IMG/VR virus record: IMGVR_UViG_3300032242_000021
Coordinates: 1-33,814 of that record
Reading direction: 5' to 3' (one strand)
Origin: a virus
DNA: 33,814 bases
A program made the translations under genes and the position numbers. Below the pieces are notes generated by a model that was given only the letters and a program-made list of their open reading frames with translations, was not told the origin of the DNA and did no database searches. Every line of letters starts with the position of its first letter. Within the stretch, counting starts at the first letter, position 1. Below are positions 2,338 through 23,781 of this stretch, piece by piece.

Positions 2338-4395
2338 ATGGCTGTTAATTTATCACCAGTTGGAGGCGTAGCGGCTCAATTCTTTGACAACGATGGCAAT
2401 GTGCTGTCGGGTGGCAAGATTTACACCTATGCGGCTGGCACTTCTACTCCACAAGCTGTTTACACATCCGCAACGGGTGTTATTGCACATTCAAACCCAA
2501 TTGTTTTGGATTCTGCGGGTCGTGTTCCTAGCGGTGAAATTTGGTTGACTGATGGAATTCAATACAAGTTTGTTGTTAACAATTCAACTGGCACATTGAT
2601 TGGTACTTATGACAATATTACTGGCATAAATTCCAACTTTTTGAACTTTACTGCCCAACAAGAGATTCAAACAGCGACTGCGGGACAGACTGTTTTTACG
2701 CTGACAACAACGCAGTATCAGCCTGGCACGAACACCCTGACAGTCTATGTTGATGGCGTAAACCAATACGGCCCAAGCGCCACTTACGCATACACCGAAA
2801 CAAGTTCAACTGTTATCACTTTTAATAATGGGCTTCATGTTGGGGCTTTGGTCAAGTTCACCACAACCCAAGCATTAGGCGGTGGCACAACTTCAGCATC
2901 ATTGGTGACATATCAACCCGCTGGCAGTGGCGCTGTGCAAACCACAGCTCAAGCTAAATTGCGTCAATATGTCAGCGTTAATGATTTTGGTGCAAGTTCA
3001 AGTGCAACATCTGCACAAAACAAAACAGCCATTCAAGCCGCCATTAACAGCGGTGCAACGCACATCTTCTTTCCTGATGCAACTTATAGCGTTGACCCAG
3101 GCTTAGAGGTCAATGTGAATGGTTTGTACTTGTATGGAAATTCATCTATTCACGGCACTGCTTTAAACTTTGCGCCAGGCGCAGTTCCTGCTTTATGGGT
3201 GGGTAAAAGTGCAAATGTAAGTGGTTTTACACTTACTGATATTGAATTTGTTGGCAATAGCGTAACGCCAGGCACTCAAAACACAAATGGTTTGGTGTTG
3301 GGTTCTGTAAGCCCGTATTATTATGTTACGGGCGTTGAAGTTGTAAATTGCTACATCCACAACTTCTTAGCAACAGGCGCAGCCGCCATTTTGATGAACA
3401 CTTGCTTTTGGGTAAATGTTCGTGGCAACAGCACTCTAAATGGTTGTACTTATAGCGTTCATATTCCCGCTGGTGGAAATGTAACAGCCACAACATTTAG
3501 TGAAAACACAAAAATGAGGGATTCATACATTGGATTCTTTAATGAATGTACTCTAAGCCAAGTTGACCAAATTACATTTAACAACTGTTCTTTTGAATAC
3601 AACGCTTTAACTTCAATTTACAGCACATCACCACAAACAAAATATTCAATCATTGATTGTTATTTTGAGTTAGATGCAACAACACCAGGCACAAACGGAA
3701 TTATTTTTATCACCAGTAGCGACACATCTGCGTATGGGTTTTCTACAGTAAACATCAATGGTTGCCAACTTCATCGAGTAACATCACCGCCCACTCTTGG
3801 ATTTGACATTAACTTAGGTTATTGCCAAAGATCAAGTGTTCAAAACCTTAATGGCGTAAACAATTTTCTTCAAGCGGCTAACGCTGAAGTTTATTACTTT
3901 AACAACCGAGGTAATGGTGCTGGTGATCCACTTGCACAATACAAAACTTTATCTGGAACTGTAAATGCTGTTGAATATGATCCCTCAAGTGGTTACTTGG
4001 TTTCATACTCAAGCCTTGGCCAAGTAACTAGCGACACGCACATTTATTCACAGCAAAAAGGTACAGCACCTGTTGCAACGCTTGTTGGTAGCCCTGCAAA
4101 TGCGTCAATTGCATTGGCGGCAAGATCAACTGACACTGCTGGTCAAGTTACAGTAACGACAACTGGCGCAACAAGTTTGTCGCCTATTTTTAAATTGACT
4201 TTCAACAAGGCGTATATTTATCCACCGATTGTTATTGTTACTCCAGCATCAACAGATGGTGGCGCTAAGTTTGTTGACAATAAAATGAGTGTTGCATCTA
4301 CTACAACTTATTTTCAATTAAATACTGGAACAGCAGTCACAGCTTCAGGGCTAACAATGGGTTTTAATTACATCGTCATTGGCGTTGTGTCGTAA
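2338..4395 (+). CDS. Tailspike with P22-like head-binding N-terminus and beta-helix
   Basis: A 685-residue protein with TAAGGAAAG before its ATG. Residues 1-110 resemble the P22 tailspike head-binding domain (GGKIYTYAAGTSTPQAVYT, LDSAGRVPSGEIW). A linker domain follows. From about residue 215 the motif YVSVNDFGA and an AAINSGATHIFFP segment mark the start of a pectate-lyase-like right-handed beta-helix, which runs to about residue 540. A beta-rich C-terminus follows. In P22 the equivalent protein binds and cleaves O-antigen; catalytic residues cannot be assigned here. It probably attaches directly to the tail machine and could carry the other fibres. Confidence 0.88.
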   Translation: MAVNLSPVGGVAAQFFDNDGNVLSGGKIYTYAAGTSTPQAVYTSATGVIAHSNPIVLDSAGRVPSGEIWLTDGIQYKFVVNNSTGTLIGTYDNITGINSNFLNFTAQQEIQTATAGQTVFTLTTTQYQPGTNTLTVYVDGVNQYGPSATYAYTETSSTVITFNNGLHVGALVKFTTTQALGGGTTSASLVTYQPAGSGAVQTTAQAKLRQYVSVNDFGASSSATSAQNKTAIQAAINSGATHIFFPDATYSVDPGLEVNVNGLYLYGNSSIHGTALNFAPGAVPALWVGKSANVSGFTLTDIEFVGNSVTPGTQNTNGLVLGSVSPYYYVTGVEVVNCYIHNFLATGAAAILMNTCFWVNVRGNSTLNGCTYSVHIPAGGNVTATTFSENTKMRDSYIGFFNECTLSQVDQITFNNCSFEYNALTSIYSTSPQTKYSIIDCYFELDATTPGTNGIIFITSSDTSAYGFSTVNINGCQLHRVTSPPTLGFDINLGYCQRSSVQNLNGVNNFLQAANAEVYYFNNRGNGAGDPLAQYKTLSGTVNAVEYDPSSGYLVSYSSLGQVTSDTHIYSQQKGTAPVATLVGSPANASIALAARSTDTAGQVTVTTTGATSLSPIFKLTFNKAYIYPPIVIVTPASTDGGAKFVDNKMSVASTTTYFQLNTGTAVTASGLTMGFNYIVIGVVS

Positions 4396-17977: not shown

Positions 17978-18214
17978 TCAAAAGGGTGCGTCATCATCCA
18001 CAGGAAAGCCCCTGTTATCTTCTTTGGGCTTTGGGGTGTTCAGGTATGCCCAACCATTCCATCCGCCCTCTGGCAGTGGGATGCTGTCCAACTTTAGCAT
18101 CGGGCCGTTCTTAGTCTCAATAACTGAGCCGATGTTCTGATAGCGGGATTTTTCCACACCATCTTTGTTTTTGTATTTACCTGAAACAATAGTTATTTCG
18201 TACAGCTTAGACAT
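17978..18214 (-). CDS. Small SSB-like protein with acidic DDDAPF tail
   Basis: A 78-residue protein that starts with alternating beta strands (KLYEITIVSGKYKNKDGVEK, then SRYQNIGSVIET) and ends in VDDDAPF. That end closely matches the acidic tip of bacterial SSB (DDDIPF), the docking site for replication and repair proteins. The body is too short for a complete classical SSB fold but could form a minimal OB-like barrel. It overlaps the exonuclease gene by 8 bases, so it belongs to the recombination module. A phage ssDNA-binding protein or an SSB-tail mimic are the main options. Confidence 0.75.
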   Translation of the reverse strand: MSKLYEITIVSGKYKNKDGVEKSRYQNIGSVIETKNGPMLKLDSIPLPEGGWNGWAYLNTPKPKEDNRGFPVDDDAPF

Positions 18215-18833
18215 GGTTAACTTTCATTAGTTTATTAATTTTGTCATCCAATTCGGCAATAAATTGGACAATCTCCGATTCAATCAATCTGATAAACACT
18301 TCATCCCGTGGGACTCTTGTTACAAACAACTGAAACATCTCAGGTAAGCGATTGTCAAAGCTGACGAAATCGCACCATTTACGGCCTGTGCAAGCCATCT
18401 GAAACTGCATCTGGGTGTTGTATTTGCTTGGCACTACTTTGGAAATCAAAGTCTCAATGTGCGTGGCAGTGTTGGGGCATTTAATCTCTAACAGACCATC
18501 ATCACCCACCAAGCCATCAGGAGAAGCGCCAGCCATCTCAATTGTGGGATGGGGTACAAAACCCACTTCATCAACCAAAACATCGTGTAAAGCCTCATAA
18601 GCGGCTCTGGCAAGGGGTTCTGTGTCTGTGCCGTGTTGCATGGCAGCGTTGGTAAAACTTTCACTTTTTAGACCTGTCAGGCGTTCACAAATCAACTGCG
18701 CCATGTAGTTGTCACGGCTGGCGCTGTAACCCGTCTTTGTCTTGGCAATCACATCTGCCACACGGGATGCGGTGACTTTGCCAATCCGAATGGTGAACCA
18801 TTCTTCTGAGCCTTGATCCATCATTTCTATCAT
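18207..18833 (-). CDS. YqaJ/lambda-type 5'-3' exonuclease
   Basis: A 208-residue PD-(D/E)XK nuclease of the YqaJ viral recombinase family, like lambda Red-alpha. It has the N-terminal GSEEWFTIRIGKVTASR, HGTDTEPLARAAYE with E72, then the catalytic line D106 (SPDGL), E116 and K118 (LLEIKCP), and a QMQFQMACTGRKWCDFV segment. It would resect dsDNA ends to single strands for the annealing protein encoded upstream in the operon. An AAGGAG site lies 10 bases before the ATG, and the gene overlaps its upstream neighbour by 4 bases. Confidence 0.93.
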   Translation of the reverse strand: MIEMMDQGSEEWFTIRIGKVTASRVADVIAKTKTGYSASRDNYMAQLICERLTGLKSESFTNAAMQHGTDTEPLARAAYEALHDVLVDEVGFVPHPTIEMAGASPDGLVGDDGLLEIKCPNTATHIETLISKVVPSKYNTQMQFQMACTGRKWCDFVSFDNRLPEMFQLFVTRVPRDEVFIRLIESEIVQFIAELDDKINKLMKVNHV

Positions 18834-19063
18834 TTCTTCATACTCCTTACAAAAGCGGAAAAACTAGCGGCTGTGTCGCCAAAAGGCATCTTGTCAAACT
18901 CTTTGGCTACTTCTTCTAAGACCTGATTGCGTTGTGATACAGACACAAACAAATCGTAAAGGTAAGGCTGACCCTCTATTTCTTGGCCTAACCTATAAAC
19001 TTCATGCAAAGCGTTTTCACGCTTAATGCGGTCAAATTCATCATCTTCATCTGTTTGAATCAT
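18830..19063 (-). CDS. Small acidic protein, unknown function
   Basis: A 77-residue acidic, helical protein (TDEDDEFDRIKRENALHEVY, and LEEVAKEFDKM). The start at 19063 is chosen because AAGGAGAAGAACAC stands directly before it and the ATG overlaps the upstream stop; a longer frame to 19126 has no ribosome site. It sits directly before the exonuclease gene. No family recognised; it may be an accessory to the recombination proteins. Confidence 0.72.
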   Translation of the reverse strand: MIQTDEDDEFDRIKRENALHEVYRLGQEIEGQPYLYDLFVSVSQRNQVLEEVAKEFDKMPFGDTAASFSAFVRSMKK

Positions 19064-19296
19064 GTGTTCTTCTCCTTGAGTTTGGCTTCGCGCCATTTGC
19101 CAATGAACCCAAGATTCTTTCCACACTGCCTACAGATAGCATCACAAGCCATAGTTTCATTAACGCCACCATCATGCTTGCATCTTGATTGCTTCCATGC
19201 TTGTTTGCCATAAACAAAAACAAAAACCAACAAAAAAACAGCAAGTGCAATCAACCCAAACACATCTCCAAAAGTAATTACAAATACAGGAGTCAT
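19060..19296 (-). CDS. Membrane protein with cysteine-rich cytoplasmic domain
   Basis: A 78-residue protein. An N-terminal membrane helix (FGLIALAVFLLVFVFVYG) is followed by a basic turn (KQAWKQSRC) and a zinc-finger-like region with CKHDGG, MACDAICRQCGKNLG and a basic end. Five Cys and one His could bind zinc. Its AAGGAGAAGAACAC leader is identical to that of the next gene. A membrane-anchored zinc finger in a recombination operon is unusual; function unknown. Confidence 0.72.
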   Translation of the reverse strand: MTPVFVITFGDVFGLIALAVFLLVFVFVYGKQAWKQSRCKHDGGVNETMACDAICRQCGKNLGFIGKWREAKLKEKNT

Positions 19297-19312: not shown

Positions 19313-19867
19313 TCATAGTTTTGCCTTTGCTTGGTCTTTGGCAGCAATGACTTTGATCTGCCAGGCTTTGTCGCCATCACAAGCCGCATACGCTACTTTG
19401 TAAGCAACTTTCAGTTCGTCTTGGGTGGTGGCTTGCTCAATGGCTCTGAACAAGTCAATCATGCTGTCAGCGTCAATCGTTGATTCAGGCTCTATGAAAG
19501 AGGGCAAATCATCTCCGTTATAGATGTACAAACCGAGGCCATGCAAGCTGAGTGCTTTGGTCATGCAACGCATGATGGCGGTGTTCACTTGGAAAGCATC
19601 AGGGCTAACGATGGCTTTATTGCGGTGATCCATCACGGGCAATTGGCAAGTCATTGGCTTGTCAAACATGGTGACTGTGACCCACACCATTGCTGTGCCG
19701 TTAATGTCCATGAAACACTTGTCACCAAACATCTCAACTTTGAACGAGGCTTTGGGGTCTGCCTTGAGTGCTTCAGCCCATGCCCAAGCCCAAGACAGAT
19801 AAGTCAGGTTGGCTTTTTTTTCTGTGTGTTCGTTGACATTCAAAGTCAATAAATTAGCGATGCTCAT
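19313..19867 (-). CDS. Single-strand annealing protein, DUF1071/Sak-like
   Basis: A 184-residue protein of the Rad52-like DUF1071 (Sak/Erf) annealing family. Key segments are LTYLSWAWAWAEALK near residue 20, DAFQVNTAIMRCMTKALSLH at about 88-107, and GLGLYIYNGDDLP. It would coat single strands made by the YqaJ exonuclease and pair them with complementary DNA, supporting phage recombination or concatemer formation. The C-terminal part is helical and Ala-rich. It overlaps the gene upstream by 4 bases; the exonuclease lies two genes downstream. Confidence 0.88.
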   Translation of the reverse strand: MSIANLLTLNVNEHTEKKANLTYLSWAWAWAEALKADPKASFKVEMFGDKCFMDINGTAMVWVTVTMFDKPMTCQLPVMDHRNKAIVSPDAFQVNTAIMRCMTKALSLHGLGLYIYNGDDLPSFIEPESTIDADSMIDLFRAIEQATTQDELKVAYKVAYAACDGDKAWQIKVIAAKDQAKAKL

Positions 19868-23145: not shown

Positions 23146-23383
23146 CCAAGAACAAATTGTTTCAGCATTAAGAGCCGCTGGCGCTTATGTCTGGATTATT
23201 GGCCTACCAGTTGACCTTTTAGTTGGGTTTCGTGGCCACACATTCTTGGTGGAAATTAAAAGTACCTCTAAAAAGCGTTTAACGGGCTTACAAGCCGACT
23301 TTTTTGAGAATTGGTCTGGAAGTACCTTGGCAAGAATTGATAGCCCTGAAGCGGCTTTACGCATGATTGGATTGATTAAATGA
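23117..23383 (+). CDS. PD-(D/E)XK-like nuclease, VRR-NUC type
   Basis: An 88-residue protein. It begins MRYAARVDANQEQIVSALRA, as in small phage VRR-NUC or resolvase-like proteins, then has the core D (PVDLLVGFRGHTFLVEIKS) with E and K in VEIK, and a following Gln (LQADFFENWSG). This is the D...ExK line of the PD-(D/E)XK fold. It may act on branched DNA. The ATG at 23108 is an alternative start; neither has a good ribosome site. It overlaps NinB by 4 bases. Confidence 0.82.
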   Translation: MRYAARVDANQEQIVSALRAAGAYVWIIGLPVDLLVGFRGHTFLVEIKSTSKKRLTGLQADFFENWSGSTLARIDSPEAALRMIGLIK

Positions 23384-23781
23384 TTATTTCATTGCACAAC
23401 CCTCAACAAGCCCACACAGTTCTGAAAGACCTATGGCCAAAGATCAAAGAAACTTTACAGGCGGGGAAACAACTGCGTTTAGAGATCAAAAATGCCACAA
23501 GAAGCAACGACCAAAATGCCCACTTTCATGCGCTTTTCAACAAAATTTCGTCAGAAATGGCAAAAGTCGGCTCTAAATGGGACGCTGATGATTGGAAAAG
23601 GCTCTTAATTGATCAATGGGCGCATGAGACAGGGCGCAAGGTGGGCAAGGTCGCACCGAGCCTAGACGGGGAACGAGTTGTTCAATTAGGGCTACAAAGT
23701 CACAAATTCACCAAAGAAGAAGGCTCAGAGTTCATTGAATGGCTCTTGGCATGGATGGCAGAAAAAGGAATAGAAGCATGA
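23380..23781 (+). CDS. ninB: NinB-type recombination protein
   Basis: A 133-residue protein of the NinB/Orf family. Typical segments are LEIKNATRSNDQNAHFHALF, KWDADDWKRLLIDQW and a C-terminal GSEFIEWLLAWMAEKG. In lambda, the protein binds SSB-coated single strands and helps load recombinase or annealing proteins. Here it would complement the minus-operon exonuclease and annealing protein. It overlaps both the upstream nuclease gene and the downstream zinc-ribbon gene by 4 bases. Confidence 0.88.
   Translation: MIISLHNPQQAHTVLKDLWPKIKETLQAGKQLRLEIKNATRSNDQNAHFHALFNKISSEMAKVGSKWDADDWKRLLIDQWAHETGRKVGKVAPSLDGERVVQLGLQSHKFTKEEGSEFIEWLLAWMAEKGIEA

Follow-up and report, generated by a model that had tools for sequence, protein, structure and literature searches.

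A small gene in the recombination module of a phage probably encodes a miniature, non-canonical phage single-stranded DNA-binding protein (SSB), here called mini-SSB, whose core would hold ssDNA and whose acidic C-terminal tip would dock the phage's Sak annealing protein. We favor this reading because a core of this kind and an OB-fold SSB domain are found exchanged on one tail, because the tip is conserved in distant homologues, and because the gene is coupled to that of an exonuclease. The source of the gene is a freshwater phage, and the window, i.e., the whole stretch of DNA analyzed, is a viral contig of 33.8 kb that also encodes terminase, portal, and major head proteins.

The mini-SSB gene and its neighborhood

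An ORF at 17978–18214 with an SSB-like DDDAPF tail had originally been predicted from the DNA letters, and our analysis confirms it on the (-) strand with a 78-residue product, MSKLYEITIVSGKYKNKDGVEKSRYQNIGSVIETKNGPMLKLDSIPLPEGGWNGWAYLNTPKPKEDNRGFPVDDDAPF. The parts of the gene and the surrounding recombination genes are as follows.

17978..18214, (-): mini-SSB gene, ORF of 78 aa with ATG start and TGA stop, ending in ...GFPVDDDAPF
18020..18214, (-): core, residues 1–65, predicted four-stranded all-beta domain (alignments A1–A4 and A9, AlphaFold model)
17999..18019, (-): linker, residues 66–72, short; distant homologues have long Q/G-rich linkers instead
17981..17998, (-): C-terminal tip DDDAPF, residues 73–78, putative SSB-Ct-like docking motif (sequence and conservation)
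18207..18214, (-): overlap of 8 nt between exonuclease end and mini-SSB start (ORF coordinates)
18207..18833, (-): YqaJ/lambda-exonuclease-like nuclease, 208 aa (PF09588, E=5.8e-28; phrog_149 exonuclease; TIGR03033 above cutoff)
18830..19126, (-): 98-aa ORF between exonuclease and annealing protein, no family above cutoff in Pfam, PHROG, or NCBIfam
19060–19296, (-): small ORF in the recombination module, resembling the phage membrane proteins of phrog_14388 (E=1e-12)
19313..19867, (-): Sak single-strand annealing protein, 184 aa (PF06378 SSAP_Sak, E=1.4e-39; phrog_659)
23380..23781, (+): NinB/Orf-type recombination mediator (PF05772, E=2.9e-21; phrog_72)

The median dN/dS of the mini-SSB gene is 0.057 (21 of 22 same-length relatives usable), with synonymous far exceeding non-synonymous changes, indicating that the ORF is a real gene. 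Family searches with the window protein gave no Pfam match, DUF669 (PF05037) included, and no NCBIfam match. As in canonical SSB, the protein carries an acidic C-terminal tip with a final Phe, which is kept in relatives.

Exchange of the core for an OB-fold SSB on a common tail

The strongest evidence that mini-SSB is an SSB is a natural swap between two Pseudomonas prophage contigs, L197 and L181. In a scan with a Pseudomonas-phage member of the family, loci L195–L197 were matched solely by the last 13 residues, and the proteins encoded there are canonical OB-fold SSBs (PF00436, E=2.6e-43 to 1.1e-42). L197 and L181 share the exonuclease gene (98.7% nucleotide identity over 629 nt) and the gene further downstream (96.3% over 300 nt); the slot just after the exonuclease is occupied by a 152-aa OB-SSB in L197 and by a 91-aa mini protein in L181. 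Both proteins have the common end AQANDSFDDDIPF, encoded by near-identical codons, whereas the coding sequence from the exonuclease to the linker is entirely different. The simplest reading is that selection does not distinguish between the mini core and the OB domain. Other upstream genes also accompany this tail: L195 has a PHROG 3657 gene there and L179 one for an Erf annealer. Tails are shared in a second lineage as well, where the Sulfitobacter-phage mini protein of L202 has its linker and tail, including GGGNSGGSRDLGDSIPFAPEWR, in common with the canonical SSB of L297. The core/OB swap thus comes from one Pseudomonas lineage and the tail sharing from one second lineage; exchange with an SSB in the same slot was found for the Pseudomonas relatives (L197 versus L181) and not for the window itself.

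The last nine residues of the Pseudomonas mini proteins, DSFDDDIPF, equal the host SSB tail, as these nine residues are described as common to Pseudomonas host SSBs (PMC10711431). Such an identity would also be expected of an SSB-tail mimic, that is, a protein whose core does not bind ssDNA and whose DDDAPF tip diverts or recruits host SSB-docking proteins. Host proteins that dock on SSB include RecO, PriA, RecQ, exonuclease I, and others; the tip is the same in kind as the SSB-Ct, and the window protein, like its nearest relatives, is very small. We regard a mimic as quite unlikely, since the core is highly conserved according to its dN/dS and replaces the OB-SSB domain in place, the long Q/G linkers of distant members resemble those of SSBs, and the neighbors are the phage's own exonuclease and annealer rather than varied host-takeover genes.

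mini-SSB belongs to a large phage family without assigned function

The mini-SSB protein belongs to the large phage family PHROG 18187, which is annotated as "unknown function". The window protein matches the PHROG profile over residues 1–66 (E=2e-4) and is bridged to it through intermediates; Pseudomonas-phage members match with E-values of 1e-41 to 1e-47, and the profile of our alignment A4 matches mini-SSB with E=2.4e-28. A description of the family was not found in the literature, within a search limited to open-licence papers. The family is already present in PHROGs without a function; here we propose one.

Searching 50,697 phage records by tblastn with mini-SSB gave matches in 26 of them (E<=1). 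Annotations at the matched position include "single-stranded DNA-binding protein" in six of the 26, and most others are hypothetical; some depositors already name family members SSB, the basis of that naming not being given. In IMG/VR, individual scans yielded 240, 26, 254 (overlapping the set of 240), 20, 122, and 17 related stretches, of which at most 80 loci per scan were taken into the analysis; a few loci in the scans with 20 and 17 stretches were matched by the tail alone. The relative in L082 had no match among plasmids or in a viral scan, and alignment A2 had none in genome contigs, where two loci matched a Bordetella-phage relative.

The general plan of the family is a ~60-residue core predicted to be all-beta, followed by a linker that varies among members and an acidic, conserved tip with final Phe. 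The core consensus reads GxYxxxxGxxKxRYxxIGxVxE..., in which Y14, G19, K22, and G29 are constant or almost constant across the alignments. The linker has seven residues in the window protein and is long and Q/G-rich in other members, and total lengths range from ~71 residues in L329 and 75 in Methylophilaceae phage P19250A up to 140 in Cobetia phage Carin1, or 147 in L082, which extends beyond the tip.

Linkage to exonuclease and annealing-protein genes

The original prediction had described the gene as coupled to the exonuclease gene, a claim that is borne out by the 8-nt overlap with the YqaJ ORF and by the neighborhood of the family at large: among 170 distinct family proteins for which 1.7 kb or more of upstream sequence was available, 129 adjoin an exonuclease, and 119 of the 129 also occur with Sak. 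Judged from the overlap, mini-SSB may be translationally coupled to the exonuclease. A spacing of −8 is also the commonest exonuclease/mini-SSB spacing among relatives, in a count that includes some contigs twice and an exonuclease profile with one non-YqaJ protein (L202); we therefore prefer counts of distinct proteins (slot tips, module, and tree) over spacing counts with duplicate contigs. Other neighbors among the 170 are RecT, Erf, Rad52-like, MgM101-type, or RusA genes, and 25 of the 170 have no recognized annealer or RusA nearby. Bordetella-phage members are located after a helicase gene.

The overlap, the near-constant adjacency, and the many annealer types tolerated would also suit an adaptor or loading factor, whose core binds the exonuclease or oligomerizes and whose tail binds the annealer, so that the strand is handed over without being coated by the core. 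We consider such an adaptor highly improbable, as members are also found with no exonuclease gene next to them, beside Erf, RecT, Rad52-like, RusA, or helicase genes, and as the core replaces the OB domain of an SSB. The NinB/Orf gene of the window fits the SSB reading, because Orf proteins of this family are reported to act on SSB-coated ssDNA (PMC4118853).

A terminal Phe after acidic residues is the conserved feature of the tail

As the family had first been gathered by homology, the tip test was repeated with the exonuclease as bait, using 80 loci of 580. Among the matches listed, the family profile was present in 69 of the 80 exonuclease loci, within ~60 nt of the exonuclease end in 67 of the 69 and at 206 nt downstream in the other two; of the remaining 11 loci, one was cut and ten had no family profile match. 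The small slot proteins of L337, L342, L365, and L374, which lack a profile match, nevertheless align with the family in A9 and end in DDIQF, DDDIQF, DDDIQF, and DLDTPF, respectively. The slot proteins of L353 and L380 belong to the PHROG SSB families 18154/7364 and end in SEIPF and SDIPF, the protein of L369 aligns with these two, and L364, L372, and L375 have no such protein in the slot.

A tip was scored when a final F was accompanied by at least two acidic residues among positions −6 to −3. Among the matches listed, 59 of the 68 distinct proteins in the slot have such a tip, compared with 6 of the 665 other distinct gene-like ORFs on these contigs; one of the six belongs to the family and lies 206 nt from the exonuclease. 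The tip of mini-SSB is not due to chance. Because related sequences are not independent, changes were counted on a tree of 124 neighboring exonucleases, in which 118 of the 124 tips have the terminal Phe; of the six others, three are truncated at contig ends (L250, L257, and L371) and three are true exceptions (L089, L338, and L368). On this tree, at least 19 changes are counted at residue −2 and at least 33 at residue −3. As the terminal Phe is kept while these positions vary, DDDAPF, DDDIDF, and EEIPF are variants of one feature, a C-terminal Phe after acidic residues. Conservation of the tail among homologues, a point raised in the original prediction, is thus found, distant members included.

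Predicted fold and relation to canonical SSB

With alignment A4, AlphaFold predicted strands at residues 3–15, 21–34, 37–42, and 56–59, with a long first hairpin and a disordered tail. The model is of moderate quality (mean pLDDT 75.4, pTM 0.54), with pLDDT values of 85–91 over residues 1–40, and was used in place of a poor single-sequence model (pLDDT 59.5). No solved structure matches it (Foldseek best E 0.95; VIA-align best Z 2.8). The fold searches gave no convincing OB-protein match, which does not in itself argue for a new fold. The best rows of a BFVD search are unnamed phage proteins, which probably belong to the mini-SSB family.

Profile comparison gave no sign of descent from canonical SSB; hhalign returned a probability of 0.9%, and no similarity was seen. 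Sequence comparison does not support an OB fold of the mini core. A trimmed OB-fold SSB, i.e., a PF00436 descendant that has lost its similarity and some strands, would be a rival with respect to origin and fold and a sub-case of our preferred explanation with respect to function. The predicted all-beta core with its long first hairpin would suit such a descent, as would the slot and tail shared with OB-SSBs. Given the lack of profile similarity, a core of ~60 versus ~105 residues, and fold searches without a convincing OB protein, though the last is not proof, we find a trimmed OB-SSB rather doubtful. The originally suggested minimal SSB is thus supported by the swap, the conserved tip, and the exonuclease coupling, and not by an OB fold or by similarity to SSB profiles; the structure prediction that had been proposed to look for such a fold returned an all-beta protein that is short, has a mean pLDDT of 75, and matches no solved structure.

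Co-occurrence with canonical SSB is consistent with a substitute but weighs little. The family is present in 54 of 60 records, most of which were picked for carrying it, a PF00436 SSB in 5, and both in none; the sixtieth record (L193/G041) has only the tail region of a mini gene. PF00436 had no match in the window record or in twenty exonuclease-anchored records. The mutual exclusion is weak alone, because most of the records were chosen for the family and because few phage records have an SSB at all: one Pseudomonas-phage SSB matched 2,393 of 50,697.

Proposed function and comparison with known phage SSBs

If mini-SSB is a minimal SSB, the YqaJ exonuclease would resect a double-strand end, and co-translated mini-SSB would coat the exposed strand, its ~60-residue beta core acting in place of an OB domain. 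The DDDAPF tip would then recruit the phage Sak, and probably also host SSB-partner proteins, by analogy with HK620 SSB and Sak4, and Sak would anneal the resected strand to a partner strand. For the wider family, the tail would probably recruit a Sak, Erf, or RecT annealing protein.

The HK620 SSB (DUF669, PF05037) is reported to stimulate Sak4 annealing and recombineering, its last six residues being required for Sak4 binding to SSB-coated ssDNA (PMC5928155). Like the proposed mini-SSB, it is a phage SSB of a recombination module whose tail recruits an annealer (PMC5928155). It differs in its size of 21.3 kDa, its apparently tetrameric state, and its partner Sak4, whereas mini-SSB neighbors Sak (PF06378) and does not match DUF669. 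RecT-type annealers are described as recognizing the last seven residues of the host SSB (PMC10711431).

With canonical SSB (PF00436), mini-SSB shares the acidic C-terminal tip with Phe, a disordered linker in distant members, the slot after the exonuclease, and, in Pseudomonas and Sulfitobacter-type phages, the tail sequence itself; it differs in its core of ~60 instead of ~105 residues and has no detectable sequence relation. The small SSBs of PHROG 18154/7364 (LFKN...YWxSAW type) take the same slot in L353 and L380 and have a D/E-rich xIPF end, but their core sequence is another and only the tip aligns. A relation to this LFKN-type SSB was rejected, as only the last ten columns aligned in profile comparison; in keeping with this, the two PHROG profiles are not among the PHROG matches of the window protein. 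The Orf14 bIL67 SSB family of lactococcal phages offers a parallel by description, being unrelated in sequence to host SSBs and complementing E. coli ssb-1; it is lactococcal, and its C-terminal part differs importantly from that of E. coli SSB (PMC3208561).

A broader proposal, which we put forward tentatively and with somewhat less than even confidence, is that a new non-OB ssDNA-binding domain of ~60 residues repeatedly replaced the OB domain of phage SSBs, the docking tail being kept or re-acquired. Such proteins would be among the smallest self-standing SSB types and widespread in freshwater phages, and the tail, not the fold, would be the conserved part of SSB function in phage recombination modules. 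If the SSB reading is true, a common family of unknown function consists of minimal SSBs, and to phages, as seen in the natural swap, the DNA-binding domain and the docking tail of SSB are separable modules. A separable tail would permit a clean test of its share in the recombination function of SSB and of which annealers read it. Moreover, annealers of the Sak/RecT type might be paired with this 78-residue SSB to aid recombineering, the host range of which is reported to be limited by SSB-tail compatibility (PMC10711431).

Tip variants and divergent members

The Shewanella ZP9 and Cobetia Carin1 members have no C-terminal tip, a Methylophilaceae-type clade has a less acidic one (TDLPF, SAMPF), and L082, L086, L088, L189, and the Sulfitobacter type continue past it. 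SSB-type docking is considered to require the terminal Phe carboxylate. Nine further residues (SPLPYLAGS) follow DDDIPF in L189–L192, L194, and L088 and would bury the tip. Likewise, an extension after the tip, ...SIPFAPEWR(I/V/A) (AAEWR in L285), is common to canonical SSBs and mini proteins in L202, L285, L295, L296, L297, L298, and L299, so that the tip is internal rather than terminal there.

L299 and L300 encode, at 3001–3285, a 94-aa protein with a different-looking core and the tip LNDSIPFAPEWR; the L299 protein matches PHROG 18187 weakly (E=1e-4), and these proteins are perhaps a far branch of the mini-SSB family. In L188 (record G022), an in-frame TAG stop lies within the core of a Pseudomonas-phage mini gene, the adjoining relatives being intact. 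Finally, the product of 1849–2505 in KX815270.1 (L200, Methylophilaceae phage P19250A) is annotated as a diguanylate cyclase/phosphodiesterase, yet it is 40% identical to the YqaJ exonuclease when the two are aligned.
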